Origin: Aerococcus urinaeequi
GTDB lineage: Bacteria > Bacillota > Bacilli > Lactobacillales > Aerococcaceae
Assembly (NCBI RefSeq): GCF_001543205.1
Contig: NZ_CP014162.1
Span: forward strand, 1,922,001 to 1,986,000
DNA: 64,000 bases
Direction of reading: 5' to 3'
Shown: positions 26,250 to 41,688 of the stretch, one piece after another
How positions within the stretch are numbered: the stretch's first letter is position 1
Layout of the letters: each line of letters starts with the position of its first letter
Program-made: the position numbers and the translations under genes
The notes under the pieces: generated by a model
What the model was told of the DNA's origin: nothing
Seen by the model: the letters and a program-made list of their open reading frames with translations, nothing else
Database searches by the model: none

Positions 26250-26272
26250 TCATTTAAATAGATACAAGAAAT

Positions 26273-26311
26273 GCACGAAATTGCCGAGAGGTTAGTTTCG
26301 TGCTTTTTTTT
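26273..26311 (+). terminator. Terminator after fruA
   Basis: GCACGAAA (26273-26280) pairs with TTTCGTGC (26296-26303), followed by eight T. The remaining gap up to 26537 is A/T-rich with a possible -10 (TATGAT near 26495). Confidence 0.9.
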
Positions 26312-26537
26312 GGTTAATAATATCATGTATTGCAAAATTGGAAAGCGAATCTGCTATATGAGAAATAGCACATATTTTATAAAGCGGCTCTAGTGATTGT
26401 CTTATTTTTGTATTTTTTGAAAAATAAATCAGTAAAGAATTGTTTAAGATAATTGATAAAGACTTAATTACGCCAACTAATCAAAAATTAATGGTATGAT
26501 ATTTTAGAATGAAAATAATCGTGCTAGGAGAGAGTGT

Positions 26538-28247
26538 ATGCGGGTTAAAGATATATTACTTAAAAATAAAGGCCAAGCCTTTTTGGCATTTGTGGCTAAA
26601 GTAGCCGAAGCCATTTTAGAGTTATTAGTGCCTATCGTGATGGCTACATTGATTAACATGGGGATTAATCAAGACAATCCATCAGTCATCATAAGACAAG
26701 GTATCTTGTTAGCAGTATTGCCTTTACTAGGTTATTTAACGGCCTTGGTTTGTCAATATTTGGCTTCTAAAGTTGCCCAGGATATTGGGACTGAAGTGCG
26801 GCTAGAAATGTTTAAAACATTAAACCGTATGGATAGAAAGCAATTGGATACTATTACAGCTTCGTCAGTAGTTCTAAGAATTGAAAATGACACTCAGAAC
26901 TTACAATTGGCCATTGCCTTAATGATTCGTCTAGGTTCTCGTGTGCCAATTTTATTAATCGGTTCAATTGTGATGGCCTTTTATGTGAGTCCAACATTGG
27001 CGCCTATATTTGTCATCGGTGGATTAATCATTGGTGCTATTTTGATATACATTAATATTTTTACTAATAAACAAAATGGCCAAATCCAACGTCGTATGGA
27101 TCAATTATCGCGCATCGTGCGTGAAAACTTTTCGGGCATCCGGGACATTCGTGCCTTCGCCAACGAAAAACATGAAGTCGACCGATTCGAAAAACAAAAC
27201 CTGACTTTAAGAGGCGAGCAATTAACCATGGGCGCCTTCCAAGCGCTGGCTAACCCGTCAAGTCTTTTCTTAGTCAACTTAGCCATTGCTTTTATCTTGT
27301 TCTTCGGTGGAAGACTGGTAAATAATGGCCAGTTTATGCAAGGGGATGTCGTTGCCTTAGTTCAATATATGAATAATATTCTCTTGGCTTTAAATGTACT
27401 CGTGAATATCTTACTTGTATTTAGTCGAGGGATTGCTGGGATTAACCGAATTGATGAGGTTTTAGCCATTAAACCAGAAATCTTAAGTGGCCAGGAAAAA
27501 CTTTCTGGGCATGAACCCTTAGCCATTCAATTTGATGATGTAACTTTTGGATACGGAGAGCGGAATACCATTGAAAATATCACAGCTGATATCAAACCTG
27601 GTTCTTTCTTTGGAATTATCGGGGGGACGGCATCCGGTAAATCAACCTTAGTTAACCTGTTGTTACGTAATGACGATGTCAACCAGGGCCAAATTATCAT
27701 TAACGATAGCTTGATTCAAAACTTAGACCTGAATGCCTACCGTCAAAAAATTGGTCTAGTCCCTCAATCAGCCTCTTTATTTACAGGGACCCTTAGAGAT
27801 AATCTATTGATGGGCAAAAAGAACATCAGTGACCAAGACTTGTGGCAAGCTTTAGAAATTGCACAAGCGAAGGACTTTGTCGCTCAAAATGACCAGGGCT
27901 TAGACATGCCCGTTCGACAAGGTGGTAAAAACTTTTCAGGTGGACAAAAGCAAAGGCTAACGATTGCCCGTGCCTTAGTTGGCCAACCGCAAGTTTTAAT
28001 ACTAGATGATTCATCAAGTGCCTTAGACTTCGCCACTGAATCGAAATTACGCCAAGCATTAAGCAAATTAAATACTACTATTATCATGATTTCACAGCGA
28101 GTATCTTCAGTACAACAGGCTGATCAAATTTTAGTTATGAATAATGGACGCAGTGCTGGTGTTGGTAGTCACGATGACTTATTAGTAAACAGTGACATAT
28201 ATCAAGCGATTGTTGCTTCGCAAATGCAGGAAGAAAAGGAGGATTAG
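26538..28247 (+). CDS. Heterodimeric ABC exporter, first half (degenerate catalytic site)
   Basis: A 569-residue half-transporter with six membrane segments (about 15-300) and a nucleotide-binding domain. Walker A is GGTASGKST near residue 362, the signature is FSGGQKQRL near 468, and Walker B is VLILDDSSSALD near 489. Asp replaces the usual catalytic Glu after Walker B, the pattern seen in the degenerate subunit of heterodimeric exporters such as LmrC, BmrC or EfrA. Its partner begins four bases after its stop. Substrates in the family are drugs, lipids or peptides; none can be assigned here. Confidence 0.9.
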   Translation: MRVKDILLKNKGQAFLAFVAKVAEAILELLVPIVMATLINMGINQDNPSVIIRQGILLAVLPLLGYLTALVCQYLASKVAQDIGTEVRLEMFKTLNRMDRKQLDTITASSVVLRIENDTQNLQLAIALMIRLGSRVPILLIGSIVMAFYVSPTLAPIFVIGGLIIGAILIYINIFTNKQNGQIQRRMDQLSRIVRENFSGIRDIRAFANEKHEVDRFEKQNLTLRGEQLTMGAFQALANPSSLFLVNLAIAFILFFGGRLVNNGQFMQGDVVALVQYMNNILLALNVLVNILLVFSRGIAGINRIDEVLAIKPEILSGQEKLSGHEPLAIQFDDVTFGYGERNTIENITADIKPGSFFGIIGGTASGKSTLVNLLLRNDDVNQGQIIINDSLIQNLDLNAYRQKIGLVPQSASLFTGTLRDNLLMGKKNISDQDLWQALEIAQAKDFVAQNDQGLDMPVRQGGKNFSGGQKQRLTIARALVGQPQVLILDDSSSALDFATESKLRQALSKLNTTIIMISQRVSSVQQADQILVMNNGRSAGVGSHDDLLVNSDIYQAIVASQMQEEKED

Positions 28248-28250
28248 CAG

Positions 28251-29990
28251 ATGGATAAAACAACATTCTCATGGCTGATGGATTACATTAAACGTTACCG
28301 TTGGACTACAATCGGCTTATTCCTATTTTCAACAATTACCGTCCTTTTTCAAGTTTTAATACCCATTCAAATCGGACAGGCAGTGAATGAAATCGTTGGT
28401 TTGGACCGAGTGGATTTTGAAGCCCTGTGGCAAGCCATTATCTTGCTGGGTGTGTTCGCTCTAATTGCAGCTCTAGCTCAGTATTTACAAAATCAGATGT
28501 CTAACCGATTAACCTACCATATTATTGCGGACTTACATAGAGACGCTTTTAATAAGATTCAAAAACTGCCTTTATCATACGTGGATAAACATTCTTTAGG
28601 GGACCTTGTTTCTCGTGTCATTAATGATGTCGATTTAGTCGGTAACGGTTTATTACAAAGTTTCAATAACTTATTTTCCGGCCTGATTTTAATTGTCGGG
28701 GTTATCGTGATGATGTTATCCCTAGATGTTAAAATCGGACTGATTGTCATTATTTTGACCCCAATTTCTGTGGTTGTTTCTTATATCATTGCCAGTAGAA
28801 CCTACCACCGCTTTACTGAACAGGTCAATTTACGTGGCGAACTCGGTGGATACGTGGATGAAATGGCTCAAGGGCAAATGATTGTCCGTGCCTTTACCTT
28901 TGAGGACGACGCCATTGAACAGTTTACAAGTATTAACCAGAAAGTGCATGAGTCAGGTATGTGGTCACAATTTTATGGGGCTTTAATTAACCCAACGTCG
29001 CGTATTTTAAACTCTATTGTTTATGCTGTTGTGGGCGTGGTCGGTGCCTTTACCGTATTATCTGGCCAATTGAGTGTGGGGATTTTCTCTTCATTCTTAA
29101 CTTACGCCAACCAATACAACAAGCCATTTAATGATATTTCTTCTATTATTAATGAAATGCAAACATCTTTAGCTGCGGCTACTCGCGTACATGAACTGAT
29201 GGGTGCTAAAGAAGAGACCCCTTCACGTGACCAAGCAGAGCTTGTAACGGTTGAAGGTGCAGTTGATTTTAAAGACTTAACCTTCCATTATGATAGCCAA
29301 CGACCTTTAATTGAAGACTTAAACGTCCATGTCAAGGCTGGGGATACGGTAGCCATTGTAGGTCCTACTGGGGCTGGGAAAACGACCCTTATCAACCTTC
29401 TGATGCGATTTTATGACCCAGTAGCCGGCGGGATTCATATTGACGGTGTCAACACCTTAGATATGCAACGTAGCTATCTACGACAAAACTTTGGGATGGT
29501 TTTACAGGATTCTTGGATTTTTGAAGGAACCATTTTCGACAATATTGCATACGGTAAGTCGAGCTCAACCATGGAAGAAGTGGTTGCTGTGGCTAAAAAA
29601 GCCCAGATCCATGACATGATTATGCAGATGGACCAAGATTATCAGTTTAAATTAAGTGAGAATGGGGCCAACATTTCTAAAGGGCAACAACAATTAATTT
29701 GTATTGCGCGAATTATGCTCACTGACCCCGATATGTTGATATTGGATGAGGCCACATCTTCAATTGATACGATGACGGAGAAGGCGATTCAAGAAACCTT
29801 TGATGCAATGATGGTCAACCATACAACCTTTATCGTAGCCCACCGATTATCAACGATTGAAAATGCCGACCAAATCTTATATATGGAAAACGGCCATGTC
29901 TTAGAACAAGGCAGCCATCAAAGTTTATTAGAAAAAGAAGGTAAGTACTTCAATCTATACCAATCGCAATTTGATCACCAAGCTGAATAA
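28251..29990 (+). CDS. Heterodimeric ABC exporter, second half (canonical Walker B)
   Basis: A 579-residue half-transporter forming a pair with the preceding gene. Membrane segments occupy about 15-310. The ATPase domain has Walker A GPTGAGKTT near residue 371, an altered signature (ISKGQQQLI) near 476 and a canonical Walker B MLILDEATSSID near 497, followed by the switch His in IVAHRL. So the intact catalytic Glu is here and the intact signature is in the partner. That complementarity is typical of heterodimeric ABC exporters with one functional ATP site. The gene ends at a strong terminator. Confidence 0.92.
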   Translation: MDKTTFSWLMDYIKRYRWTTIGLFLFSTITVLFQVLIPIQIGQAVNEIVGLDRVDFEALWQAIILLGVFALIAALAQYLQNQMSNRLTYHIIADLHRDAFNKIQKLPLSYVDKHSLGDLVSRVINDVDLVGNGLLQSFNNLFSGLILIVGVIVMMLSLDVKIGLIVIILTPISVVVSYIIASRTYHRFTEQVNLRGELGGYVDEMAQGQMIVRAFTFEDDAIEQFTSINQKVHESGMWSQFYGALINPTSRILNSIVYAVVGVVGAFTVLSGQLSVGIFSSFLTYANQYNKPFNDISSIINEMQTSLAAATRVHELMGAKEETPSRDQAELVTVEGAVDFKDLTFHYDSQRPLIEDLNVHVKAGDTVAIVGPTGAGKTTLINLLMRFYDPVAGGIHIDGVNTLDMQRSYLRQNFGMVLQDSWIFEGTIFDNIAYGKSSSTMEEVVAVAKKAQIHDMIMQMDQDYQFKLSENGANISKGQQQLICIARIMLTDPDMLILDEATSSIDTMTEKAIQETFDAMMVNHTTFIVAHRLSTIENADQILYMENGHVLEQGSHQSLLEKEGKYFNLYQSQFDHQAE

Positions 29991-30015
29991 GTCCTTGTTG
30001 AAGAAGGCGCACATC

Positions 30016-30048
30016 AAAAAGCTAGCGGCAATTTTCGCTAGCTTTTTT
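30016..30048 (+). terminator. Terminator between the ABC exporter and the CBS gene
   Basis: AAAAGCTAGCG pairs with CGCTAGCTTTT around an 8-base loop, with T runs on both strands, so it can serve both convergent genes. Confidence 0.9.
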
Positions 30049-30061
30049 GTCTACCTTCGTT

Positions 30062-30823
30062 TTATAGATAGTTTAGAATCGTCGTAATATCCCGTTGAGT
30101 GACAATTCCAATAATGTCTTCAGGTTTACGGACATCGTCTTTTTCCGAAATCAATAAGACTTCATTTCGGTTGTTGCGCATCAAGTCGACCATAAAATCA
30201 TCTAATTCAAAAATTGGGGTATCTGGTGAAATGATTTGTTTACGGGTAATTTTCTTATGTTGGCTATGATTGATGATTTGCTTTACTTGATATTTGGAGA
30301 AGTCCATATAGAACCAAGAATTTTTAGTAATTTCATCCGCAATAAATTTAGTGATCAATTCTGCAGAAATAACGGATACCAAACGATCCTTATTAAAGAC
30401 GGGTAATTGGGATACTTGATGGTGGTGTAAATCAGTCAAGGCTTTTTCTAGACTATCATCCATATTAATGGCAAAAACTGGTTTAATAAATTTTCTGGTT
30501 GACGGAATTTCTGTCAGTAATTTGTTGATTTCAAAGAGTTGTTGATTGGTTTCTTCAGAAGGATAAGCCAGGTTTACTTCAACCTCTGTCTTGTGGTGGG
30601 TCAACAAGTTGCGTAACTGGCGAATCTGGTCTAAAAATTGATGGTTACGTTTGATTACTTGGTTCGTTTTGGCTAATTCTTCTACACACTGGAAGAAAGT
30701 AGCATCATCATTGACTAATAATCCCTTCATGGTTTGGTGTAGGGCGTTAAAGTGGCTAATAAAAGCGACTGTTACTGAATAGGGTTTATCCCTGGTAAAT
30801 TCTTCAGAATAATGACTGGTCAT
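30062..30823 (-). CDS. CBS-domain protein with helical N-terminus
   Basis: A 253-residue cytosolic protein. The C-terminal two thirds hold a CBS pair: the first CBS motif around 125-165 (ALTDLHHHQVSQLPVFN, then VISAELI) and the second around 205-250 (DDFMVDLMRNNRNEVLLI, then GIVTQRDI). CBS pairs usually sense adenosine nucleotides or second messengers such as c-di-AMP. The N-terminal 110 residues are helical and contain RNLLTHH near residue 71, a pattern resembling a HEPN Rx4H motif. I do not recognise a named family. It is monocistronic and convergent with the ABC exporter. Confidence 0.8.
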   Translation of the reverse strand: MTSHYSEEFTRDKPYSVTVAFISHFNALHQTMKGLLVNDDATFFQCVEELAKTNQVIKRNHQFLDQIRQLRNLLTHHKTEVEVNLAYPSEETNQQLFEINKLLTEIPSTRKFIKPVFAINMDDSLEKALTDLHHHQVSQLPVFNKDRLVSVISAELITKFIADEITKNSWFYMDFSKYQVKQIINHSQHKKITRKQIISPDTPIFELDDFMVDLMRNNRNEVLLISEKDDVRKPEDIIGIVTQRDITTILNYL

Positions 30824-30931
30824 CTTGGCAACCTCCTTCTATCTACTGCTTTGATTATAACAAAAAGATGATGGAATAATGAAATGCAATACCCTTGAGC
30901 AAATAAATTAAAAATCTTGATATGATTTTTA

Positions 30932-30986
30932 GATAATCCGTTATCGCTTATAGGTATAAGCTTTTGAAAATATTGAGTGCTAGAAT
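30932..30986 (+). promoter_or_regulatory. Operator and promoter of the first binding-protein gene
   Basis: Two adjacent inverted repeats, GATAATCCGTTATC (30932-30945) and CTTATAGGTATAAG (30947-30960), precede an extended -10 TGCTAGAAT (30978-30986) that lacks a good -35. The second repeat would be centred near -40. This layout suggests an activator site. The same arrangement recurs before the paralogue. Confidence 0.65.
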
Positions 30987-31027
30987 TACGCTAAGCTTGA
31001 AAAATATTTTATTAGGAGGTACTTTTG

Positions 31028-31813
31028 ATGAAGAAATTCTTAAAATGGGTCGTATTTTCAACTGTGGCGTTGCTATTAACGGCATGTGGTAATACAAGTT
31101 CAGCGGAAACATCCGAAGATAAAGTCATACGAGTTGGGGCAACGGGGCAATCTTTCCCAAACTCCTACCAAGAAAACGGGGAGTTAACAGGTTTTGATGT
31201 TGAGGTATTCGAAACAGTGGTAACTAATTTAGGCTACACTATTGAATGGACTACTGGAGGTTTCGACGGATTGGTTACACAATTAAATACTGGCAAACTT
31301 GATACAATTGCTAATAACTTTGCGCAAACAGAAGAACGGGCAGAGGTTTATCAATTCTCAACGCCATACGCATACGCACATACAACCTTAGGTGTGCTAG
31401 CCGATTCTGACATTCAAACGATTGAAGACTTGGAAGGTAAAACAATTGGTTTGGTTGCAGGGTCACATAAGGTAGATATCATGAAAAAATATATAGGAGA
31501 TAACGGTTTAGATATTGAAATCCGTACTTATGAAAATCGTGAAGGACCTGAGTTAGATGTTGAGAAAGGTCAGATCGATGCCTATGCTCAGGATTATACG
31601 ATAATTCAAGCGAGCATCCAATTGAAGGACAAACCATTCCGTACGCTAGACCAGACCTTCTCAAACGACAATGTGGTCTTCCCATTTGCCAAAACTGAAG
31701 AAGGGACAGCTTTTAAAGAAGCCTTTGACGCAGAACTTGAAAACTTGCGTGAAGATGGCACTTTAGCTGAAATATCTAACAAATACTACGGCGAAGACGT
31801 AACACAAGGATAG
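31028..31813 (+). CDS. Cystine/2SC-type amino acid ABC transporter binding lipoprotein (copy 1)
   Basis: A 261-residue family 3 solute-binding lipoprotein. Its signal peptide ends in the lipobox LLLTAC (Cys20). The mature part contains RVGATGQSFPNSYQENGELT and GFDVEVFE, as in the TcyJ/TcyK and YxeM group that binds cystine or S-modified cysteines. The ATG at 31028 follows TAGGAGGT; a TTG directly before it is less well spaced. It has its own promoter and terminator. A close paralogue of identical length follows 335 bases later. Confidence 0.88.
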   Translation: MKKFLKWVVFSTVALLLTACGNTSSAETSEDKVIRVGATGQSFPNSYQENGELTGFDVEVFETVVTNLGYTIEWTTGGFDGLVTQLNTGKLDTIANNFAQTEERAEVYQFSTPYAYAHTTLGVLADSDIQTIEDLEGKTIGLVAGSHKVDIMKKYIGDNGLDIEIRTYENREGPELDVEKGQIDAYAQDYTIIQASIQLKDKPFRTLDQTFSNDNVVFPFAKTEEGTAFKEAFDAELENLREDGTLAEISNKYYGEDVTQG

Positions 31814-31830
31814 GTGAATAAGCATCATCG

Positions 31831-31867
31831 AGAGGTATCTTAGATTATCAGGATACCTCTTTTTCTA
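31831..31867 (+). terminator. Terminator after the first binding-protein gene
   Basis: AGAGGTATC pairs with GATACCTCT around a 12-base loop and is followed by five T. The rest of the gap to 32148 is A/T-rich and carries the duplicated promoter. Confidence 0.88.
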
Positions 31868-32052
31868 TTTGTATAGAGAAATGATCATTTATTAGTAAAT
31901 GTCTTGATTAAATGATATATCAATATCCGACATTATCCAGTTAAATATAGCTAAAAAGATATAAATAAATATTTTTCAATGATTCTGAGCAAAAAACTAG
32001 AGATTTTATTGAAAAATGCTTACAATTTTAAATTGTATTGATATGATTTTTA

Positions 32053-32107
32053 GATGACTCGTTATCGATTATTGGTATAAGTGTTCATACATATTCAGTG
32101 CTAGAAT
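32053..32107 (+). promoter_or_regulatory. Operator and promoter of the second binding-protein gene
   Basis: GATGACTCGTTATC (32053-32066) and ATTATTGGTATAAG (32068-32081) align with the two inverted repeats before the first copy, and TGCTAGAAT recurs at 32099-32107. Spacing is the same in both copies, so these positions are likely functional. Confidence 0.65.
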
Positions 32108-32148
32108 AATTCTATGTTCAAAAACTATTTATTAGGAGGCAGTTCAAG

Positions 32149-32934
32149 ATGAAGAAATTATTTAAATGGGTCGCATTTGCAGCTATCGCTTTGGTGCTAG
32201 CAGCTTGCGGTAATGGTAGCTCGGAGGAAGCATCCGGCGATAAAGTATTGCGTGTTGGGGCTACAGGTCAATCTTTCCCAAACTCTTACCAAGAAGACGG
32301 TGAGTTAACCGGGTTTGACGTTGAGGTATTGGAAACAATCGCAGCAAATTTAGGTTACACAGTTGAATGGACAACTGGTGGATTCGACGGTTTGGTAACA
32401 CAATTGAATACGGGTAAATTAGATACTATTGCCAATAACTTTGCGCAAACTGAAGAACGTGCAAAAGTTTATCAATTCTCTACACCATATGCATACGCAC
32501 ATACAGCATTAGGTGTATTGGCTGATTCAGATATCCAATCAATTGAAGACTTAGAAGGTCAAACTATTGGTGGGGTTGCGGGTTCAAATAAAGTAGATAT
32601 TATAACCAAATATATTGAAGAAAATGGTTTAGATATCGAAATCCGTACTTACGAAAACCGTGAAGGACCTGAATTAGATCTTGAAAAAGGTCAAGTCCAA
32701 GCCTATGTACAAGATTACGCGATTATCCAATCAAGTATCACATTAAAAGATAAACCATTCCGTACTTTAGAAGAAACATATTCAGATGACAGCGTGGTAT
32801 TCCCCTTCGCACAAACTGATCAAGGTACTGAATTGAAAGAAGCTTTTGACGCAGAACTTGAAAAATTACGTGAAGATGGTACTTTAGCTGAATTATCAGA
32901 GAAATACTACGGCGAAGACATTACCCAAGAATAG
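32149..32934 (+). CDS. Cystine/2SC-type amino acid ABC transporter binding lipoprotein (copy 2)
   Basis: A 261-residue paralogue of the preceding gene, colinear along its whole length, with lipobox LVLAAC (Cys20). Shared blocks include RVGATGQSFPNSYQE, WTTGGFDGLVTQLNTGKLDT and RTYENREGPELD. Differences cluster in the signal peptide, around 145-155 (GGVAGSNKVDI versus GLVAGSHKVDI) and near the C-terminus. It starts behind TAGGAGG and is followed 27 bases later by the MmgE/PrpD gene with no terminator. This copy therefore heads the operon whose permease and ATPase lie further downstream. YxeM of Bacillus is the likely functional relative. Confidence 0.88.
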   Translation: MKKLFKWVAFAAIALVLAACGNGSSEEASGDKVLRVGATGQSFPNSYQEDGELTGFDVEVLETIAANLGYTVEWTTGGFDGLVTQLNTGKLDTIANNFAQTEERAKVYQFSTPYAYAHTALGVLADSDIQSIEDLEGQTIGGVAGSNKVDIITKYIEENGLDIEIRTYENREGPELDLEKGQVQAYVQDYAIIQSSITLKDKPFRTLEETYSDDSVVFPFAQTDQGTELKEAFDAELEKLREDGTLAELSEKYYGEDITQE

Positions 32935-32961
32935 TTTAATAAAACTCAAGGAGGGGCAGAT

Positions 32962-34323
32962 ATGAATGAAAACCTAGGGATCAAATGGATTAAACAATTG
33001 ATCGAAGCAGACCCGACAACAAATGAAGATGCTGTCCGGGAAGCGAAAAAGGGCATTCAAGATTATCTTGCTGCCTCCTTTTTTGCGAATAGGGAAGCAA
33101 TACCAAAGCAATTAAATAATGGCCAGCCTTTCACTTACTGCACGTCGAACAGCCCAATAGATAAAAAGCAAAGGATTACCTTTGCTTCTAGGCATCATGC
33201 CCTTGTTAACGGCTTTCGGGCCCATTACTTAGACATTGACGACACCCAACCGTCCATGCGGGGTCATGCTAGTGCAGTCATCCTTTCAGCCTTATTTGCG
33301 GTTGTCCATCCAAATGACGATGGTCAGGACGTCATCTCTGCCTACATTGCCGGCGTTGAAATTGGTGGACGGCTTGGGAACTTATTCAATCCAGACCTTT
33401 ATCAAAAAGGCTGGCATGCAACTGAATTCATCGGCGGTTTTGCAGCAACAGCAGCCTTAATCAAATACTTGAACTTAAACGAAAGTGAAGCTACTAATGC
33501 TTTTTCACTCGTTGCCAGCCAGGCTTCAGGATTTCGCTTCCAGTTTGGAACAGACGCCAAACCGCTACAAGCAGGTATCGCAGCTAGAAATGCCATTGAA
33601 GCGGTAGATTGGACCTTAAAGGGTGTCCAAGGGTCAGAAGACTTTTTATTCGGTGACAGAGGTCTATTTGAAATTTTTGAAATTGACCAAGCGACTGGTC
33701 AGGAAGTCCTAACTGCATCATGGGATGGGGACTTACAGATATGCAAACCGGGCCTATGGTTTAAAGCCTACCCATTTTGTTCGGCAGCCTTTAGAGCGGC
33801 GGACGCAGCAGTGACTATTTTCCGAACAACAGGATACGAATTCTTAGATATTGAACAGGTGACGATTTCCTTTAACCCAGGCCGGGACGCAGCTTTAGTT
33901 TACACTACACCAACCACTGGACTTGAAGGCAAGTTTTCAGCAGAATATATTACTTATCTGGGCTTGAAAAAGGGCTACTATGAACCAGCTGACTTTACGA
34001 CTGACCCAATCGATGAGGGTATTCAAGCCGAATTAGCTAAGTACAGGCGGATTATCACCCCCGAAACGGACAAGGGCTTATCTTCGACAGTGAAAATCAC
34101 CTTTAAAGATGGTTTATCTGTCCAAGAAGAGGTATGGTATCCAACTGGGTCACCGGAAAATCCCCTATCTAACAAGATGCAATTTAATAAGCTTTCGGAC
34201 AGCCTGCAAAATAAACTATTAGCTGAAAATATTCAGCGGGATATTCAAACACTGGATCAAACAAAAATCAACACATTTTTAAAACATATTAACGGAGGCA
34301 ATTCATGGGATCACATGCACTAG
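32962..34323 (+). CDS. MmgE/PrpD family protein (YxeQ-like)
   Basis: A 453-residue member of the MmgE/PrpD family, which includes 2-methylcitrate dehydratase and cis-aconitate decarboxylase. The helical N-terminal half contains RGHASAVILSALFAVV near residues 95-110. A second domain follows with KPGLWFKAYPFCSAAFRAAD near 262-281. In Bacillus subtilis the yxe operon for S-(2-succino)cysteine breakdown carries a family member of about this size (YxeQ) whose role is unclear. Here it lies between the binding protein and the lyase. Its 3' end overlaps the lyase start by 19 bases, implying coupled translation. A simple citrate-pathway role is unlikely in this context. Confidence 0.8.
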   Translation: MNENLGIKWIKQLIEADPTTNEDAVREAKKGIQDYLAASFFANREAIPKQLNNGQPFTYCTSNSPIDKKQRITFASRHHALVNGFRAHYLDIDDTQPSMRGHASAVILSALFAVVHPNDDGQDVISAYIAGVEIGGRLGNLFNPDLYQKGWHATEFIGGFAATAALIKYLNLNESEATNAFSLVASQASGFRFQFGTDAKPLQAGIAARNAIEAVDWTLKGVQGSEDFLFGDRGLFEIFEIDQATGQEVLTASWDGDLQICKPGLWFKAYPFCSAAFRAADAAVTIFRTTGYEFLDIEQVTISFNPGRDAALVYTTPTTGLEGKFSAEYITYLGLKKGYYEPADFTTDPIDEGIQAELAKYRRIITPETDKGLSSTVKITFKDGLSVQEEVWYPTGSPENPLSNKMQFNKLSDSLQNKLLAENIQRDIQTLDQTKINTFLKHINGGNSWDHMH

Positions 34324-35678
34324 ATTTAATCACAATCGGCAATAATTTTGGGACGGCAGAAATGCGCGCCTTATGGGACGATAAAGCCCGTATCCAAAAA
34401 CAATTAGACACAGAAGCAGCCCTGTCTCAAGCAGAGGGTCAGTTGGGCATTATCCCAGTTGACGCTGCCGCTAAAATCAAAGAGGCAGCGAATGTCGACC
34501 TATATGATATTGAAGATATCGCTGCTGAATCGGCACGTTTACGTCATTCTTTAATGGGGACGATAAACGCCTTAGAACGCCAATCTGGTGAGGCGGGAGA
34601 ATTTGTCCATTTTGGTGCTACCACCCAAGATATTGTGGATACAGGGATGATGTTACAATTGCGGGATGCCTATGACATTATCGAGCGCGATGTGGCGATT
34701 GTTTTAGACTTGTTAGCTAAACTAGCTAAAACCCATCAGGATACGGTTATGATTGGTCGAACACATGGTATGCATGCCTTACCAACAACTTTTGGCTTTA
34801 AGGTTGCTGTTTGGGTGGATGAATTCATCCGTCATGCAGAACGTTTAAAGGAATCTAGAGATCGAATTTTTGTTGGTAATATGAACGGGGCGGTTGGAAC
34901 ATATGCCTCATTTGGGCCTAAAGGTAGCCAGCTCGAAGCAGCGACTATGGACATTTTAGGTCTAAATACGCCTAATATCGGCTGGCAATCAGCTCGTGAC
35001 CGTTTTTCAGAATTTGGTAATATTGCGGCATTAATTAGCGGAACTGCTGGTAAGATCGGGAATGAATTTTATAATTTAATGCGGACGGATATTGGAGAAA
35101 TTGAGGAACCCTTTAGTAAGGGTGAGATTGGTTCTTCAACCATGCCACACAAACGAAACCCAGCTTTATTTGAAGGCCTAGCATCATTGACGCCGCCAGT
35201 TTTGAAATCGGTCGCCCTTTTGCATGAATCAATGGGTACTGAACATGAACGAGACGCTATGCATTGGCGCCAAGAGTGGGTGGCTTTACCTGAAATTGCT
35301 ATCTACCTATCTGGTCAGTTAAATACCTTGAAAAATGTATTAGACGGTTTAACTGTACGGGAAGACCGGATGCAAGCCAACTTAAACCGGCAAGCTGGCT
35401 TAATTATGTCTGAAAAAGTCATGTTTGAATTATCTGACTCACTTGGTAAGCAAACTGCCCACGCTAAGGTTTATAGTTTAGCTATGCAATCATTTGAAGA
35501 GGGGCTTGACTTTGGGGACGTTTTAAAAGATGACGCTGAAATTTCTGCCAACCATCAACCTGAAGAAATTGACCAGTGGTTAGACCCGAGTGCTTATACA
35601 GGATTGGCCCACGAGAAAGTAGACCAAGTCCTAGCAGCTTACCAAGCCTTTAAGGCAGGTCTTGCTGATGGTAAATAA
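34305..35678 (+). CDS. Fumarase/adenylosuccinate-lyase superfamily lyase, candidate S-(2-succino) lyase
   Basis: A 457-residue member of the aspartase/fumarase superfamily. Region C1 is HFGATTQDIVDTG near residue 103, C2 is IGRTHGMHALPTTFGFK near 150-166, and the catalytic-serine loop C3 is GSSTMPHKRNPALFE near 275-289. All are intact. The sequence resembles PurB and PcaB, but the context is a yxe-like transporter and acetyltransferase cluster. Published work describes a superfamily lyase that replaces the monooxygenase YxeK in some yxe clusters and splits N-acetyl-S-(2-succino)cysteine into fumarate and N-acetylcysteine. That is my preferred assignment. Ordinary adenylosuccinate lyase is unlikely because no purine gene is near. 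Confidence 0.75.
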   Translation: MGSHALDLITIGNNFGTAEMRALWDDKARIQKQLDTEAALSQAEGQLGIIPVDAAAKIKEAANVDLYDIEDIAAESARLRHSLMGTINALERQSGEAGEFVHFGATTQDIVDTGMMLQLRDAYDIIERDVAIVLDLLAKLAKTHQDTVMIGRTHGMHALPTTFGFKVAVWVDEFIRHAERLKESRDRIFVGNMNGAVGTYASFGPKGSQLEAATMDILGLNTPNIGWQSARDRFSEFGNIAALISGTAGKIGNEFYNLMRTDIGEIEEPFSKGEIGSSTMPHKRNPALFEGLASLTPPVLKSVALLHESMGTEHERDAMHWRQEWVALPEIAIYLSGQLNTLKNVLDGLTVREDRMQANLNRQAGLIMSEKVMFELSDSLGKQTAHAKVYSLAMQSFEEGLDFGDVLKDDAEISANHQPEEIDQWLDPSAYTGLAHEKVDQVLAAYQAFKAGLADGK

Positions 35679-36168
35679 GGATTTAACGTTTAGACGATTA
35701 CATATGACGGACCAACCAGCTTATCAAGACTTGATTCACTCGGCTTACGGGTCGATTGACCAAAGTGTGATATCTTTTGAAGCGGCTAGTGAAAGCCAAG
35801 CGGATAATATCCACTGGTTGAAGAGTGTGCCAACATTTGGCCTCTTCAATGAAGACGGTGATTTGGTGTCAGGGGTGTCTTTACGATACCCTTGGGGGCC
35901 AGAACCGGGTCCTAAACCTTATCCTCATATCGGACGCTTGGCAACTCATGCGGATTTTAAGGGTCACGGCTATGCTAGGATCACATTTGATTATATAGAG
36001 GATTATTTACGTGATGAATTGAAATGCCCAGTGGTTACGCTAGGGACTGCTGATCAGTTGCCCTGGTTAGTTGCCATGTATGAGCGGTGGGGTTTTGTTG
36101 AATTCGCCCGAAAACGATTGGGCAATAAAAAGCACATCACTGTTTATTTACAAAAAAACCTTATATAA
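35668..36168 (+). CDS. GNAT family N-acetyltransferase (YxeL-like)
   Basis: A 166-residue GNAT protein. The acetyl-CoA-binding beta4-alpha3 region reads HIGRLATHADFKGHGYARI near residues 90-108, with the Gly-rich pyrophosphate loop, and the C-terminal MYERWGFVEFARKR is typical. YxeL of Bacillus has nearly the same length and acetylates S-(2-succino)cysteine as the first catabolic step. The ATG at 35668 overlaps the end of the lyase gene and follows AAGGCAGG. The tight overlap with the lyase supports a joint pathway. Confidence 0.82.
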   Translation: MVNKDLTFRRLHMTDQPAYQDLIHSAYGSIDQSVISFEAASESQADNIHWLKSVPTFGLFNEDGDLVSGVSLRYPWGPEPGPKPYPHIGRLATHADFKGHGYARITFDYIEDYLRDELKCPVVTLGTADQLPWLVAMYERWGFVEFARKRLGNKKHITVYLQKNLI

Positions 36169-36243
36169 TTCTCCATATTTGGAAACCAGGATAGTGCCTG
36201 ATATAGGCAACAAGAATGCAAAGGATTTACAAAAAGGAAGTGA

Positions 36244-36918
36244 ATGAATATGGATTTTCCATACATGCTAGAAATCTTACCAGAAGTTGCTAGCTACATA
36301 CCTACAACGCTTGTTCTAGCGTTTGTCTCTATGTTTTTCGCTGTGGTGATTGGGTTAATCGTAGCCTTTGGTCGCCGTAGCAAAAATAAAATTATCTCAA
36401 ATTTATCAGCCGCATATATTTCTGTATTCCGCGGGGTACCAACCGTTGTGCAATTATTTATTATCTACTTTGGGCTCCCACAATTATTCCCGTCTATGTC
36501 TAACTTGTCTGCAATGAGTGCAGCGATTATCGGTTTATCTTTTAAAGAAGCCTCTTATTTAGCGGAAATCTTCCGTGCAGCTCTAGACTCTGTAGATAGC
36601 GGACAAATTGAAGCTGGTTTATCAGTAGGGATGAAACCTTGGAAAATTTACCAAACTGTAGTCATCCCACAAGCAGTTGTGAATGCTGTACCGGGTACTT
36701 TAAATGTCTTTATTTCTCTAGTTAAAGAATCGTCAATCGTCTTTACTTTAGGGGTAACCGAAGTCTTTGCTTCAGCGAAATTGATTGCTTCATCATCAAT
36801 GCTGTATTTTGAAACCTATGTTGTAGTTGGTTTCATTTACTGGGTAATCATCGTGATCATTTCATGGTTACAAGGCAAACTAGAACGCAAGATAGCTGTT
36901 CCTTACAAACGCAGCTAG
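36244..36918 (+). CDS. Amino acid ABC transporter permease (YxeN-like)
   Basis: A 224-residue HisM/GlnP-type permease with about five membrane segments. The family loop that contacts the ATPase reads FKEASYLAEIFRAALDSVDSG near residues 100-120, followed by GQIEAGLSVGMKPWKIY. The length equals that of YxeN. Two ATGs are possible (36244 and 36250) behind AAAAAGGAAG; the second has better spacing, the first was kept for completeness. It follows the GNAT gene after 75 bases without a clear terminator and precedes the ATPase gene by 15 bases. Confidence 0.92.
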   Translation: MNMDFPYMLEILPEVASYIPTTLVLAFVSMFFAVVIGLIVAFGRRSKNKIISNLSAAYISVFRGVPTVVQLFIIYFGLPQLFPSMSNLSAMSAAIIGLSFKEASYLAEIFRAALDSVDSGQIEAGLSVGMKPWKIYQTVVIPQAVVNAVPGTLNVFISLVKESSIVFTLGVTEVFASAKLIASSSMLYFETYVVVGFIYWVIIVIISWLQGKLERKIAVPYKRS

Positions 36919-36933
36919 GAAAGGAGTACCAAT

Positions 36934-37686
36934 ATGATTACAGTTGAAAAATTAGTGAAAAAATTTGGCGATAACACCGTATTGAAGGGAATTGACTTTC
37001 AAGTGAATGAAGGGGAAGTTGTCGCAATTATCGGGCCGTCAGGTTCAGGAAAATCGACCTTTTTGCGGAGTTTAAACTTACTGGAATCACCAGAATCAGG
37101 AACCATTGTAATTAACGGGGTTAAAGTCATAGCACCGGATATCAAGAAGCAAGATGCCTTTGCCTTAAGACAGCAAACTGCCATGGTATTCCAACACTAT
37201 AATTTGTTCAGAAATAAGACAGCTTTAGAGAACGTTACTTTATCGTTAATTTCAAATAATGTCATGAAAAAAGACGAAGCTGCTGAGTTTGGTGAAAAAT
37301 TATTGAAACAAGTGGGCTTGTCAAAACAAAAAGACCAATACCCAGTGACTTTATCAGGTGGGCAACAACAACGCGTAAGTATCGCCCGGGCACTTGCTGT
37401 ACAACCTAAAGCAATTCTACTAGATGAGCCAACGTCTGCCTTAGACCCAGAATTAGTGAATGAGGTGCTTGAAACCATCGAACACCTGGCAAAAGGGCAC
37501 ACAACACTAGTTATCGTGACGCACGAAATGAATTTTGCCCGCAAAGTGGCGGACCGGGTTGTCTTTATGAACGATGGTGTAGTTGTAGAATCAGGTCGTC
37601 CAGAAGAAATATTTACAAATCCCAAAGAAGAGAGAACTAAACAATTCTTGAAAGAGTATATTGGGGTTAATGAATACGTGATTTAG
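36934..37686 (+). CDS. Amino acid ABC transporter ATP-binding protein (YxeO-like)
   Basis: A 250-residue polar amino acid ABC ATPase. Walker A is GPSGSGKST near residues 34-42, the Q-loop is VFQHYNLF near 87, the signature LSGGQQQRVSIARAL near 139-153, and Walker B ILLDEPTSALDPELV near 162-176, with His in VTHEM. It completes the importer with the upstream permease and binding protein(s). The start lies behind AAAGGAG. The following gap contains the promoter of the nitroreductase gene and only weak inverted repeats, so the operon end is not sharply marked. Confidence 0.93.
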   Translation: MITVEKLVKKFGDNTVLKGIDFQVNEGEVVAIIGPSGSGKSTFLRSLNLLESPESGTIVINGVKVIAPDIKKQDAFALRQQTAMVFQHYNLFRNKTALENVTLSLISNNVMKKDEAAEFGEKLLKQVGLSKQKDQYPVTLSGGQQQRVSIARALAVQPKAILLDEPTSALDPELVNEVLETIEHLAKGHTTLVIVTHEMNFARKVADRVVFMNDGVVVESGRPEEIFTNPKEERTKQFLKEYIGVNEYVI

Positions 37687-37760
37687 AGTGCTTAATATAC
37701 ATACAAAATAAACTTTTTATAACTTAAAAGTATAAGATTGTATATTATTGAACTTACTAA

Positions 37761-37789
37761 TTGACTTTTAAAAAGTAAGCGTGTAGACT
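37761..37789 (+). promoter_or_regulatory. Promoter of the nitroreductase gene
   Basis: TTGACT (37761-37766), a 17-bp spacer and TAGACT (37784-37789). CTTACT and AGTAAG flank the -35 as an inverted repeat, a possible operator. Confidence 0.7.
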
Positions 37790-37851
37790 GGAAATAGTTC
37801 TAAATGGAACTTGTTATTGATAAAAATGGATTTAAGAGGAGTAAAATTAAC

Positions 37852-38448
37852 ATGTCAGATTTTAAAGACTTATTAACTAAACGTCGTTCTCATTACGCTA
37901 TCGGTGCTAACACTGATGTGACTGCTTCAGATGTAACTGCTGCTTTAAACGAAGTGATTCCAACTGTACCAAGTGCATTTAACTCACAAGGTGTACGTGT
38001 TGTTGTCGTTTCTGGTGAAAAAAACCAACAACTTTGGGACTTGATTAAAGGTGTACAAACAGAAGTATTAGACGAAGGTACATTAAACTACATGACACCA
38101 ATCATGGATGGTGCGCGTGAAGCAGTTGGTACAATCTTATTCTTCGAAGACCGTGACGCTGTTGAAGCAGGTATCCCTGGTAACCCAGAACGTCGTTCAG
38201 TTTACAAAAATCACGAATCAGCAAATGCGCAATTAACAGCTTGGTTAGCATTAACTGAATTAGGTTTAGGTGCAAACTTACAACATTTCAACATTGGCTA
38301 CGAGCAAGGATTTGACGCAGCAATTCGTGAATTGTTAGATTTACCTGAAGCTTGGGAACTAGTTGCTGAAATGCCATTCGGTTCAATTGAAGCACCTGCT
38401 GCAGAAAAAGAAGTTATTGCTGCTGAAGAACAAGTTATCTTAAAATAA
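37852..38448 (+). CDS. Nitroreductase family protein
   Basis: A 198-residue FMN-dependent nitroreductase-fold protein of the Frm2-like group. The N-terminal FMN phosphate contact is KRRSHYAIG near residue 9. NPERRSVYKNHESANAQLTA near 117 and LTELGLGANLQHF near 141 are the other cofactor and dimer segments. I chose ATG at 37852, seven bases after AGAGGAG; the ATG at 37804 has no ribosome site. Codon use is strongly biased (GAA, GGT, CGT, TTA), as in highly expressed genes. The substrate is unknown; members reduce nitroaromatics or quinones or act in oxidative stress. Confidence 0.88.
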   Translation: MSDFKDLLTKRRSHYAIGANTDVTASDVTAALNEVIPTVPSAFNSQGVRVVVVSGEKNQQLWDLIKGVQTEVLDEGTLNYMTPIMDGAREAVGTILFFEDRDAVEAGIPGNPERRSVYKNHESANAQLTAWLALTELGLGANLQHFNIGYEQGFDAAIRELLDLPEAWELVAEMPFGSIEAPAAEKEVIAAEEQVILK

Positions 38449-38470
38449 TCACGTCATATTAGACGTTAAC

Positions 38471-38509
38471 AAAAAGGATCATTTACCTCATGGTAAGTGA
38501 TCCTTTTTT
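38471..38509. terminator. Bidirectional terminator between nitroreductase and araC-type genes
   Basis: AAAAAGGATCA and TGATCCTTTTTT, with the inner TTTACC/GGTAAG, form a strong stem with T runs on both strands, serving the convergent genes. Confidence 0.88.
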
Positions 38510-38513
38510 GTGT

Positions 38514-39341
38514 TCATTCATTGGTTTTACGGAATTGAAGGGGACTAACCTGATAAGTTTTCTTAAATGCCTTACTAAATGCTAAAGGATCAGTAAAACC
38601 CACGGAACTAGCAATTTGAGAAATGGTCAAGGAGGAATTGATTAACAAATCACAACTTTTCTTCATTTTGACCATTAATATATAATCTTTTATTGACTGT
38701 CCTGTTTCTTCCTTAAATATCTTATAAAGATAACTGCGGTTCAAATTTAATTTTTCAGCTATTGTGGTAACTTGTAGGGGGGTATCATATTGACTATGAA
38801 TAATCTTCAAAGCTTGCTTCATATACTTCTTGTGGTTGTTATGACTTTCCTGCGCTTCCTGGTTTGGAAATTCTTCAATCAAGAAAGCCAACAATTTATA
38901 TAATTCACCTATAATTTCTAATTCATTACTTTCAGTAAATTTTTTATCCGCATAGGCAATTAAACGATACATTTGATTCAAAATTTTTGAATCCTTTTGA
39001 CTTGTGGCAAAACATTTTGCCATAAGACTAGATTGCAATAAAATGCTTTCCGCTCTCGATCCGGAAAAACCAACCCATATGTAAGACCACGGCTGATCAC
39101 CATCTGCTTGATAGTAAGTGACGGCATCTTTAGGTAGGATAAAAATATCTCCAGCACCTAATGACGTCACCTTATTATATATGGTGAATTGCCCACTTCC
39201 TTCAATAATATAATGTAGTACAAAGTTATTACGAACGCTTGGACCGAAAGCATAATTCGGGGGACAGGATTCAAACCCATAATGATCAATGTTTAAATCA
39301 AAATTATTATTATCAAATTCATTGTATGTATTTAAAGTCAT
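38514..39341 (-). CDS. msmR: AraC-family regulator of the msm/aga locus
   Basis: A 275-residue AraC/XylS-type activator. The N-terminal cupin (about 10-150) contains NNFVLHYIIEGSGQFTIYNK and LGAGDIFILP. The C-terminal double HTH (about 175-275) has LNRSYLYKIFKEETGQSIKD and VGFTDPLAFSKAFKKTYQVS. It is divergent from the alpha-galactosidase gene. MsmR of Streptococcus mutans has the same family, size and position and activates the multiple sugar metabolism operon. The inducer there is a galactoside such as melibiose or raffinose, which I infer here. The symbol is by analogy. Confidence 0.85.
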   Translation of the reverse strand: MTLNTYNEFDNNNFDLNIDHYGFESCPPNYAFGPSVRNNFVLHYIIEGSGQFTIYNKVTSLGAGDIFILPKDAVTYYQADGDQPWSYIWVGFSGSRAESILLQSSLMAKCFATSQKDSKILNQMYRLIAYADKKFTESNELEIIGELYKLLAFLIEEFPNQEAQESHNNHKKYMKQALKIIHSQYDTPLQVTTIAEKLNLNRSYLYKIFKEETGQSIKDYILMVKMKKSCDLLINSSLTISQIASSVGFTDPLAFSKAFKKTYQVSPLQFRKTNE

Positions 39342-39400
39342 CTTTTATGCCTCCCTAATTAGGCAACATTATACCATGTTTAGGAAACAAAATGCCATTT

Positions 39401-39413
39401 GTAAAGCGCTTAC
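39401..39413. promoter_or_regulatory. Near-palindrome GTAAAGCGCTTAC, possible LacI/CcpA-type operator
   Basis: The core AAGCGCTT is palindromic and resembles LacI-family operators, but one extra A prevents a match to the strict cre consensus. It lies 65 bases before the aga start codon. Confidence 0.5.
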
Positions 39414-39427
39414 TTATTGGTAAACTT

Positions 39428-39457
39428 TTAGTAAATAAATTAGTAAATCAATACTAA
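39428..39457 (+). promoter_or_regulatory. TTAGTAAA repeats upstream of aga
   Basis: TTAGTAAA occurs at 39428-39435 and 39440-39447 (12-bp period). The second copy also forms the inverted repeat TTAGTA-N6-TACTAA (39440-39457). The same pair occurs upstream of galK, so one regulator may control both. Confidence 0.6.
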
Positions 39458-39477
39458 TGAATCAAAAGGAGAAAATT

Positions 39478-41676
39478 ATGGCTCATTTCATCACATTTGA
39501 TACGGAAACACAGGTTTTTCACCTGAGAAATGCAAGTATTTCATATCTGTTAAGCGTTGAAGAAGGTGGCTTATTAAGTCATCTGTATTTCGGATCACGT
39601 ATTGAAAACTATCATGGACAAAGAAAATACCCACGTATAGACCGTGGTTTTTCAGGTAATTTACCAGATAGTATAGATAGAGGCTATTCACCTGATACTT
39701 TGCTGAGAGAATATAGTGGCACTGGTGAAGGTGACTACCGTATTCCAGCAATATTAGTGAAACAAGGGAATGGTAGTCAAGCCACTCGATTCATATATAA
39801 TCGCTACGAAATTATTACAGGCAAGCCCAAACTAGAGGGACTTCCGTCATCTTACGTAGACCATGATGATGAGGCTGAAACGTTAGTCATTTGGTTAGTT
39901 GATGCCCGTGCTGGTCTTGAATTAGCATTATCCTATACCATATATGCTGAACGTTCTGTCATAACGCGGTCAGTAAAATTACATAATATTTCCAATCAAA
40001 CTATTATGATTGATAAAATCGCATCTATGGCACTCGATTTACCTGCGCAAGATTTTGATTTGATTTCCTTACCTGGAGCTCATGTCAATGAACGTCATAT
40101 TAGCCGACAATCATTGACATATGGCCAAACACGTTTAGCAAGTCGTCGCGGCACCTCAAGTCATCAAATGAATAATACGATGATTTTGGCGCAAAGACAT
40201 ACCGACGAGTTTCATGGTGAAGCCTATGGTTTTGCGCTTGTATATTCAGGAAATCATGCGTTAGAAATTGAACGCGATCAGATTCAACAAACCCGTGTGG
40301 TGATTGGTATTAATGAAGAACTTTTTTCTTGGCAACTTGCATCCGGCGAAAGCTTCCAAACACCTGAAGTCATCATGGTGTATGCCAATAACGGTTTAAA
40401 TCAAATGAGTCAAACATTCCACGGATTGATTCGTGACCGCGTGGCTCGAGGAAATCATCAACACGCACTTCGCCCAATCTTGGTGAATAATTGGGAAGCA
40501 ACTTATTTTGATTTTAACGAGGAAAAATTGCGTCCAATCGTAGATGAAGCCAAGCAATTAGGTATTGAAATGTTCGTATTAGATGATGGTTGGTTTGGAC
40601 ACCGAGATAATGATGATAGTTCACTTGGAGATTGGTTCGTAGATAAACGGAAATTCCCTAAAGGATTACGTCAATTTGCCGATTATGTCCACGGTCAAGA
40701 TTTAAAATTTGGCTTATGGTTTGAACCAGAAATGATTTCTGAAGATTCTGAATTATTACGTAAACATCCTGACTATCGTTTAGCAGTCCCAGGACGAACA
40801 CCATACCCGAGTCGTCAACAATTTGTATTAGATATTGGCCGTAAAGAGGTTAGAGATAATGTCATCGCCCAAATTGAAGCCATTTTAGATGAAGGCTACA
40901 TTGACTATATTAAATGGGATATGAACCGACATATTTCAGATATTTATTCGGCCAATTTACCTGCACATAAACAGGGTGAAGTCTTACATCGATATACTTT
41001 AGGTTTGTATGAAATGCTAGAACACTTAACAACAAAATACCCTGATATTTTATGGGAAGGTTGTTCAGGTGGTGGTGGTCGTTTTGATGTTGGTTTCGCA
41101 TATTACATGCCTCAATCATGGACGAGTGATAATACAGATGCCATTGCACGGTTAAATATCCAATACGGGACATCCTTATTTTATCCAACTTCATTGATGA
41201 CATCACATGTATCCGCAGTACCCAATCATCAAACAGGGCGTATTACACCGTTTGATACCCGCGGTGACGTAGCAATGAGTGGTGTATTGGGCTATGAGTT
41301 AGATTTAACGCAACTAAGTCCGGCAGAAAAAGACTTAGTCAAAACACAAGTCGCCGCTTATAAAGAGATCCGACCACTCGTACAATACGGTGATTTCACT
41401 CGTTTAGAAAGTCCTTTTGAAGGTAACGAAACGGCATGGATGTTTACCAATGAAGACAAATCTGAAATATTAGTTTTTACTTTTGGGGTATTGAATACAG
41501 CCCAAGCATCGATTCATCAAGTGAAATTACATGGACTTCAATCAGATAAAATCTATGAAAATGTGGCTAGTAAAGAAGTTTTTACGGGTAGCGAATTGGA
41601 GTGGATGGGATGGTATGAAGCGCCAATGACAGAAGATTTTGTTTCGCACCGTTATCATTTTAAAGCAATGAATTAG
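39478..41676 (+). CDS. aga: Alpha-galactosidase, GH36
   Basis: This enzyme removes terminal alpha-1,6-galactose from raffinose, melibiose and stachyose. The 732-residue length fits the GH36 tetrameric alpha-galactosidases of Gram-positive bacteria. The N-terminal beta-supersandwich is followed by a TIM barrel. The nucleophile Asp481 lies in KWDMNRH, the acid/base Asp551 in TSDNTDA, and VLDDGWFGHRDNDDSSLGDW is near 365-384. There is no signal peptide, so it is cytosolic and acts after MsmEFGK import. The ATG at 39478 follows AAAGGAGA; an upstream ATG at 39457 precedes that site. Confidence 0.96.
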   Translation: MAHFITFDTETQVFHLRNASISYLLSVEEGGLLSHLYFGSRIENYHGQRKYPRIDRGFSGNLPDSIDRGYSPDTLLREYSGTGEGDYRIPAILVKQGNGSQATRFIYNRYEIITGKPKLEGLPSSYVDHDDEAETLVIWLVDARAGLELALSYTIYAERSVITRSVKLHNISNQTIMIDKIASMALDLPAQDFDLISLPGAHVNERHISRQSLTYGQTRLASRRGTSSHQMNNTMILAQRHTDEFHGEAYGFALVYSGNHALEIERDQIQQTRVVIGINEELFSWQLASGESFQTPEVIMVYANNGLNQMSQTFHGLIRDRVARGNHQHALRPILVNNWEATYFDFNEEKLRPIVDEAKQLGIEMFVLDDGWFGHRDNDDSSLGDWFVDKRKFPKGLRQFADYVHGQDLKFGLWFEPEMISEDSELLRKHPDYRLAVPGRTPYPSRQQFVLDIGRKEVRDNVIAQIEAILDEGYIDYIKWDMNRHISDIYSANLPAHKQGEVLHRYTLGLYEMLEHLTTKYPDILWEGCSGGGGRFDVGFAYYMPQSWTSDNTDAIARLNIQYGTSLFYPTSLMTSHVSAVPNHQTGRITPFDTRGDVAMSGVLGYELDLTQLSPAEKDLVKTQVAAYKEIRPLVQYGDFTRLESPFEGNETAWMFTNEDKSEILVFTFGVLNTAQASIHQVKLHGLQSDKIYENVASKEVFTGSELEWMGWYEAPMTEDFVSHRYHFKAMN

Positions 41677-41688
41677 GAGGAAAGTGGC

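Follow-up and report, generated by a model that had tools for sequence, protein, structure and literature searches.

A probable lyase-type S-(2-succino)cysteine locus in Aerococcus urinaeequi and a possible epimerase role for its YxeQ-type protein

Gene Content and Organization of the Locus

The 64-kb stretch of the Aerococcus urinaeequi genome analyzed here (hereafter the window; the host genome is one contig of 2.01 Mb) carries seven intact open reading frames (ORFs) at 31028-37686, all on the + strand, which very probably constitute a yxe (scm) locus of the S-(2-succino) lyase (2SL) type, serving the uptake of S-(2-succino)cysteine (2SC) with release of fumarate. Each of the seven encoded proteins showed a strong Pfam family match. 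In detail, the locus begins with two solute-binding proteins (SBPs) of the YxeM type, that is, SBP1 (31028-31813; a family-3 solute-binding lipoprotein and the duplicate copy; PF00497, SBP_bac_3, 107 bits) and SBP2 (32149-32934; PF00497, 114 bits). They are followed by an MmgE/PrpD protein related to YxeQ, the proposed succino-carbon epimerase (32962-34323; PF03972/PF19305, the MmgE_PrpD N and C domains), and by a lyase assigned to 2SL by its sequence (34305-35678; PF00206/PF10397, Lyase_1 and ADSL_C). A GNAT N-acetyltransferase of the YxeL type (35662-36168, with an ATG at 35668; PF00583, Acetyltransf_1) is 46% identical to the GNAT of the Enterococcus italicus cluster. The last two genes encode an ABC permease of the YxeN type (36244-36918; PF00528, BPD_transp_1) and an ABC ATPase of the YxeO type (36934-37686; PF00005, ABC_tran), which are 53% and 61% identical, respectively, to their counterparts in the yxe operon of Bacillus spizizenii. 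A sequence-only reading had named these genes as yxe-type members, and their families, coordinates and strand were all confirmed.

From SBP2 through the ATPase gene the spacing is short, and the genes of MmgE, lyase and GNAT overlap: the lyase starts at 34305, inside the end of MmgE (34323), and the GNAT start (35662, or the ATG at 35668) lies inside the end of the lyase (35678). The arrangement is thus as in an operon. The start of SBP1 is the ATG at 31028, and the ORF list places a TTG upstream of it at 31025.

A yxe (scm) locus has been defined as a cluster holding three or more of the enzymatic components YxeK, YxeL, YxeMNO, YxeP and YxeQ, five in all (PMC9706529). Of these, three (the YxeL, YxeMNO and YxeQ types) are found here. 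The monooxygenase YxeK gave no tblastn match in the window with queries from B. spizizenii and Paraburkholderia (E 1e-3), the remaining genome not having been searched for it, and YxeP gave none in the window with B. spizizenii and E. italicus queries at the same threshold. The earlier proposal that a fumarase-superfamily lyase stands in the place of YxeK holds for the window, and the lyase is kin to lyases of other yxe loci. The nearest named relative turned up at this locus, Aerococcus agrisoli, has a cluster with the same gene order, except that there is a single SBP instead of two. The same clustered set recurs in other species, and thus represents more than a chance assembly.

Phylogeny of the Lyase

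The lyase of the window is most similar to that of A. agrisoli (85% identity), followed by the cluster lyases of E. italicus DSM 15952 (65%), the congener G091 (61%; G and L numbers are our labels for genomes and loci), a Streptococcaceae metagenome-assembled genome (MAG; 60%), Enterococcus sp. MMGLQ5-1 (59%), Kosakonia (57-58%) and Trichococcus (56-57%). The host genome encodes three Lyase_1 proteins, one of which is a separate PurB (genome 490585-491805) with 34% identity to the lyase of the window.

In the maximum likelihood tree (IQ-TREE, 39 rows), the lyases of the window, A. agrisoli, G091, E. italicus, Enterococcus sp. MMGLQ5-1 and the Streptococcaceae MAG form one set (support 98/92), which the cluster lyases of Kosakonia and Trichococcus adjoin. 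The 11 cluster lyases together are supported at 88/89 only, and at 97/92 once a 38%-identical lyase of the genome G276 is added. Five PurBs form a separate set (100/99), and a Paraburkholderia homologue, taken as a putative PcaB, falls outside. Grouping with true PurB, which the sequence-only reading had named as the outcome that would overturn it, was thus not seen. Furthermore, at 59 alignment columns six cluster lyases all share one residue and three PurBs all share another.

The E. italicus genome compared here is that of DSM 15952, the source strain of the characterized 2SL. That enzyme was purified, cleaves N-acetyl-2SC and complements a B. subtilis yxeK mutant (PMC9706529). From strain and context, the lyase of the E. 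italicus locus would be UniProt E6LDH5. The two loci have in common the order MmgE-2SL-GNAT, an SBP, a permease and an ATPase. A YxeP (M20) and a T-box leader are found in the E. italicus cluster but not in the window, where the SBP, preceded by its own leader, is duplicated. By its class (lyase class I), its placement in a yxe locus without YxeK in the window and its supported grouping with the E. italicus enzyme, the product of 34305-35678 is assigned to 2SL, as had been proposed, with a predicted activity on N-acetyl-2SC. In this way 2SC salvage by means of a lyase, for which E. italicus and D. dadantii are the tested cases, is extended to an Aerococcus.

Co-occurrence of the MmgE/PrpD Protein with 2SL or YxeK

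Among 395 Lactobacillales genomes, the lyase (at least 56% identity, E 1e-100) is present in nine, and two more matches of 38-39% identity lie in other gene surroundings. MmgE is found in 12, one of these matches being a stretch of 95 residues. All nine lyase-bearing genomes also carry MmgE (Fisher P = 4e-16, uncorrected for kinship). In all eight clusters other than that of the window, lyase, GNAT and MmgE stand together, and five of them also include SBP and ATPase; the other three belong to Trichococcus.

The same applies to Enterobacterales, the order of Kosakonia. Of 247 genomes, 13 have the lyase (E 1e-120) and 14 have MmgE (E 1e-40), and every lyase-bearing genome has both (Fisher P = 9e-21, again uncorrected for kinship). 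Judged by coordinates, the lyase and MmgE genes lie no more than 5 kb apart in 11 of these 13 genomes. The sole genome with MmgE and no 2SL (G639) carries YxeK, GNAT and YxeP beside its MmgE.

A wider set of 27 named MmgE loci was collected through two peptide patterns and is not a complete list. In tblastn searches, with 2SL called at 54% identity or more to the lyase of the window, 13 of these loci have 2SL, 11 have YxeK, none has both and three have neither. In one of the 13 (L072) the genes are in pieces. The three loci with neither partner (L051, L058 and L066) are represented by contigs 3-8 kb in length, and a lyase piece of 87 residues is present in L051. Well-supported branches of the MmgE tree force at least two swaps between 2SL and YxeK partners, and parsimony gives three, with several long branches and a partly unsure placement. 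MmgE is kept with partners that give different products (fumarate from 2SL, oxaloacetate from YxeK), as would be expected of a protein acting on what these partners share, the substrate. Handling of the products would be a poor fit, whereas a substrate-directed role agrees with either partner.

Variation around these clusters was also observed. In two Enterobacterales genomes (L156:9174-10502 and L158) a YxeQ-like gene is located away from the 2SL cluster, and the one in L156 is 3′ of an apparent AraC-type regulator, as judged by eye. The clusters of the Streptococcaceae MAG (L061:4476-6615) and Enterococcus sp. MMGLQ5-1 (L062:4513-6652) include an iron-type alcohol dehydrogenase and a class I/II aminotransferase, with an M20 gene on the opposite strand, and their MmgE has Lys for the catalytic Tyr.

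The MmgE/PrpD Protein as a Relative of YxeQ

The best PDB match of the MmgE protein is 7BRA ("B. subtilis IRG1"; 237 bits), followed by the iminodisuccinate (IDS) epimerase (142 bits) and the mouse cis-aconitate decarboxylase (72 bits). Over 428 positions, 7BRA shares 92% identity with the MmgE encoded in the B. spizizenii yxe operon, where this gene comes after those of YxeK (PF00296), GNAT, SBP, permease, ATPase and M20. Because of this identity, 7BRA and 7E9D are most likely YxeQ of the yxe operon and not a cis-aconitate decarboxylase, although the structure was published as cis-aconitate decarboxylase IRG1 (PMC7347537). In the same paper the active site is described as fully conserved with IDS epimerase, in contrast to two residues important in mammalian IRG1, and no word starting with "assay" occurs in its main text. 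Another study places 7BRA outside the decarboxylase clusters and states that its function is undetermined and that evidence of enzymatic activity is lacking (PMC12290011).

The MmgE of the window retains H102, Y147, H152, K200 and K268. Among the 30 MmgE sequences compared, which include many close relatives, H88, D91, H102, H152, K200 and K268 are invariant and all match IDS epimerase. Y147, also matching, is present in 26. Therefore, the catalytic His, the second-base Tyr and the carboxylate-binding His/Asp/Lys set of MmgE/PrpD epimerases are all found, the roles of these residues being those given in PMC7347537 and PMC12290011. The mouse decarboxylase has Ile aligned with position 147. IDS epimerase (2HP0/2HP3) thus shares the family and the same catalytic His/Tyr/Lys set with the MmgE of the window, but the two are only 27% identical and differ in genetic context. 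A further MmgE/PrpD protein has been shown to act as an (S)-(R)-methylsuccinate isomerase, for which a His/Tyr mechanism is proposed; it belongs to the same family as the protein of the window, and the comparison of the two extended to the residues that the paper names (PMC12290011). As its members shift the C2 proton of substituted succinates, this family suggests itself as a natural tool for epimerization.

Proposed Pathway and Alternative Explanations

According to the proposed pathway, 2SC would be bound by SBP1 or SBP2 and imported via the permease and the ATPase. The GNAT would acetylate it to N-acetyl-2SC, from which the lyase would release fumarate and N-acetylcysteine by β-elimination. 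A deacetylase encoded elsewhere would then convert N-acetylcysteine to cysteine, which would complete the series of acetylation, cleavage and deacetylation described for 2SC breakdown (PMC9706529, PMC12757645). The counterparts of YxeL, M, N, O and Q are shared with the B. subtilis yxe/scm operon, as compared through relatives of the B. subtilis group; that operon differs in having the monooxygenase YxeK, for which the window has the lyase, and the deacetylase YxeP, which is missing from the cluster of the window.

The sequences lend good support to uptake, acetylation and cleavage. The sequence-only reading had gone further, to the recovery of cysteine from succinated thiols, and this part is qualified by the lack of YxeP in the cluster, as free cysteine requires an N-acetylcysteine deacetylase. 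Several observations weigh against this reading of the locus. Nine M20 proteins were found in the host genome, and of the eight compared (a ninth, at ~42 bits, was left out) L007 comes closest, with 31-33% identity to six YxePs that are at least 45% identical to one another. L007 is not supported as the missing deacetylase, given this low identity and since its closest kin are conserved in congeners; a counterpart with 97% identity is present in the congener that has most likely lost the locus. YxeP was also not found in the stretches around the clusters of A. agrisoli and G091. No FumC-type fumarase was found in the host genome, where class I fumarase was not sought, and a cysK-type synthase is present, so that the salvage may not be essential. 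Finally, the lyase scores 382.9 bits with the purB model TIGR00928, above its cut-off of 326.2. For the deacetylation step, B. subtilis is reported to be able to use deacetylases encoded outside the cluster (PMC12757645). In the congener G091, a class II fumarase (FumC) gene is located directly 3′ of the ATPase gene (L034:12113-13477) and is a likely sink for the released fumarate.

The step proposed for MmgE concerns the stereochemistry of the substrate. The addition of a thiol to fumarate creates a new stereocentre, and without an enzyme both configurations are expected. When N-acetylcysteine was succinated chemically with maleic anhydride, three peaks of the same mass appeared, which were ascribed to structural isomers or enantiomers (PMC11820211). 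The YxeQ-type protein would interconvert the configurations at the succino C2 by abstraction and return of a proton (His102/Tyr147), and both diastereomers from spontaneous succination would thereby reach a stereospecific lyase. 2SL and YxeK would each accept one configuration, and YxeQ would render the whole pool usable. We regard the chances that YxeQ-type MmgE/PrpD proteins are epimerases of 2SC or N-acetyl-2SC as evenly balanced, since published equilibrium data may oppose strict stereospecificity. The comparative case for this role is what is new here, while the locus itself is a clean and typical representative of the 2SL-type yxe group.

A probability somewhat short of even is given to the alternative in which the MmgE/PrpD protein is a decarboxylase, a dehydratase or an accessory protein of little importance. 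The published IRG1 name of 7BRA points in this direction. Four observations count against an epimerase, and the first, second and fourth of them also favor this alternative. First, MmgE is the fastest-diverging protein of the cluster (55% identity between the window and A. agrisoli vs. 84-87% for lyase and transporter). Second, Y147 is replaced by Lys in four of the 30 sequences (L019, L035, L061 and L062). Third, MmgE lies away from the lyase in two of the 13 Enterobacterales genomes (G527 and G599). Fourth, the published 2SL, acting without YxeQ, reached the same substrate to product ratio from the breakdown and the synthesis sides (PMC9706529). If a chemical mixture served as substrate in that experiment, an equal ratio from both directions argues against strict stereospecificity of the lyase. 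The substrates were made chemically at first and with 2SL after its discovery, and the complementation by 2SL was carried out in B. subtilis yxeK mutants, in which we presume yxeQ to have been intact (PMC9706529). Such complementation tests, like assays that use enzyme-made substrate, may fail to reveal stereospecificity. On the other side, the mouse decarboxylase match is low and lacks the Tyr, the decarboxylase identity of 7BRA is itself doubtful on the published grounds given above, and MmgE is retained with two chemically unrelated C-S-cleaving enzymes. This retention, together with an epimerase-like active site, yields a testable role for a gene of unknown function.

If the protein is an epimerase, the solved structure 7BRA would need re-annotation. 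The repair of 2SC would also stand beside the pairing of IDS epimerase with its lyase. The methylsuccinate isomerase with its CoA transferase would be a further parallel (PMC12290011). A function would moreover be provided for YxeQ, a component whose function is listed as unknown in PMC9706529; among the literature matches listed, YxeQ is also named in PMC8752978. No report of a 2SC epimerase, and no use of the name ScmQ, was found among the literature matches listed.

It is unlikely that the cluster imports and cleaves an S- or N-succino-type adduct other than 2SC, such as another thiol adduct, an itaconate-derived cysteine adduct or iminodisuccinate. The promiscuity of the published 2SL on small thiols (PMC9706529), the kinship of MmgE to an epimerase whose substrate is an N-linked disuccinate, and the missing N-acetylcysteine deacetylase, which leaves cysteine recovery not self-contained, would be consistent with such a substrate; against it stand the 65% identity of the lyase to that of the E. 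italicus yxe locus and the common neighbors GNAT, SBP, permease, ATPase and MmgE. Least probable is a role of the lyase as a second adenylosuccinate lyase, or as some other member of the aspartase/fumarase superfamily that was recruited to an amino-acid importer. It passes the TIGR00928 cut-off, but so do the cluster lyases of E. italicus and Kosakonia, so that an automatic PurB label would mislead. The host has a PurB of its own, from which the lyase is separated by the tree, and the 59 columns mentioned above distinguish cluster lyases from PurBs.

Duplicated Receptor and Its Leader

The two receptors of the locus are the product of a tandem duplication of leader plus gene, as read from the sequence. 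A direct repeat of 93 nt (30917-31009 vs. 32038-32130) is 78% identical, and the leader and SBP unit recurs at a spacing of 1121 bp (30917-31813 and 32038-32934). The first copy of the leader, the presumed leader/promoter region of SBP1 (30917-31024, + strand), is partly conserved 5′ of the A. agrisoli SBP; the second (32038-32148, + strand) is the likely promoter of the main operon. SBP1 and SBP2 are 81% identical as proteins, and the single SBP of A. agrisoli is 87% identical to SBP2 and 82% to SBP1. A terminator-like hairpin, with a 12-pair stem followed by a T run, lies 3′ of SBP1 (31830-31861, + strand); it is a consensus match only, and eight such sites occur in 7.9 kb vs. a mean of 6.0 in shuffles.

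A loop that reads GSN in all nine other SBPs compared is GSH in SBP1. In related binding proteins this loop contacts the ligand, and a wider substrate range through the changed loop, as the sequence-only reading had suggested for the two receptors, is possible. The leader motif common to both SBP copies and A. agrisoli allowed no regulon to be read in the host genome: exact matches are the two copies only, and at two mismatches there are 18 more sites in the genome vs. 21 for a reversed control pattern. No Rfam element reached the gathering threshold in window positions 28000-40000.

In other species, T-box leaders are located 5′ of the clusters of E. italicus (L048:8700-8914) and G262 (L035:13486-13703), two of the 14 loci scanned. 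The triplets after the GAA motif are AAU and GAU, or AUG in both at a shift of one base, and not UGC.

Probable Loss of the Locus in a Congener

The lyase is present in two of 15 genomes of the genus. In the congener G004, whose flanks are 94-98% identical to those of the window, bases 30913-36958 of the window are without counterpart, and at the respective position (G004:C1 ~1840000-1840370; L151) there is a remnant consisting of a short SBP fragment fused to a start-less ATPase gene. The locus has most likely been lost in G004, which suggests that lyase-type 2SC salvage can be lost between close relatives.

Neighboring Genes and Other Observations

A nitroreductase gene downstream (37804-38448) was considered as a member of the operon and rejected: it is kept in the congener without the locus and has no match in the stretches of A. 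agrisoli, G091 and E. italicus. Upstream, on the - strand (30062-30823), a CBS-domain protein is encoded, with a weak match to a CBS-domain anti-phage family (30 bits vs. a cut-off of 260).

The G+C content is 0.43-0.46 at 33000-35999 vs. 0.35-0.41 in the other kilobases of 26000-41999. Like MmgE, the GNAT is less similar to its A. agrisoli counterpart (64% identity) than the lyase and transporter are. In G276, the 38%-identical lyase has an ABC importer and a lipoate-protein ligase as neighbors (L043:7428-11746), perhaps another system combining a lyase with an importer.

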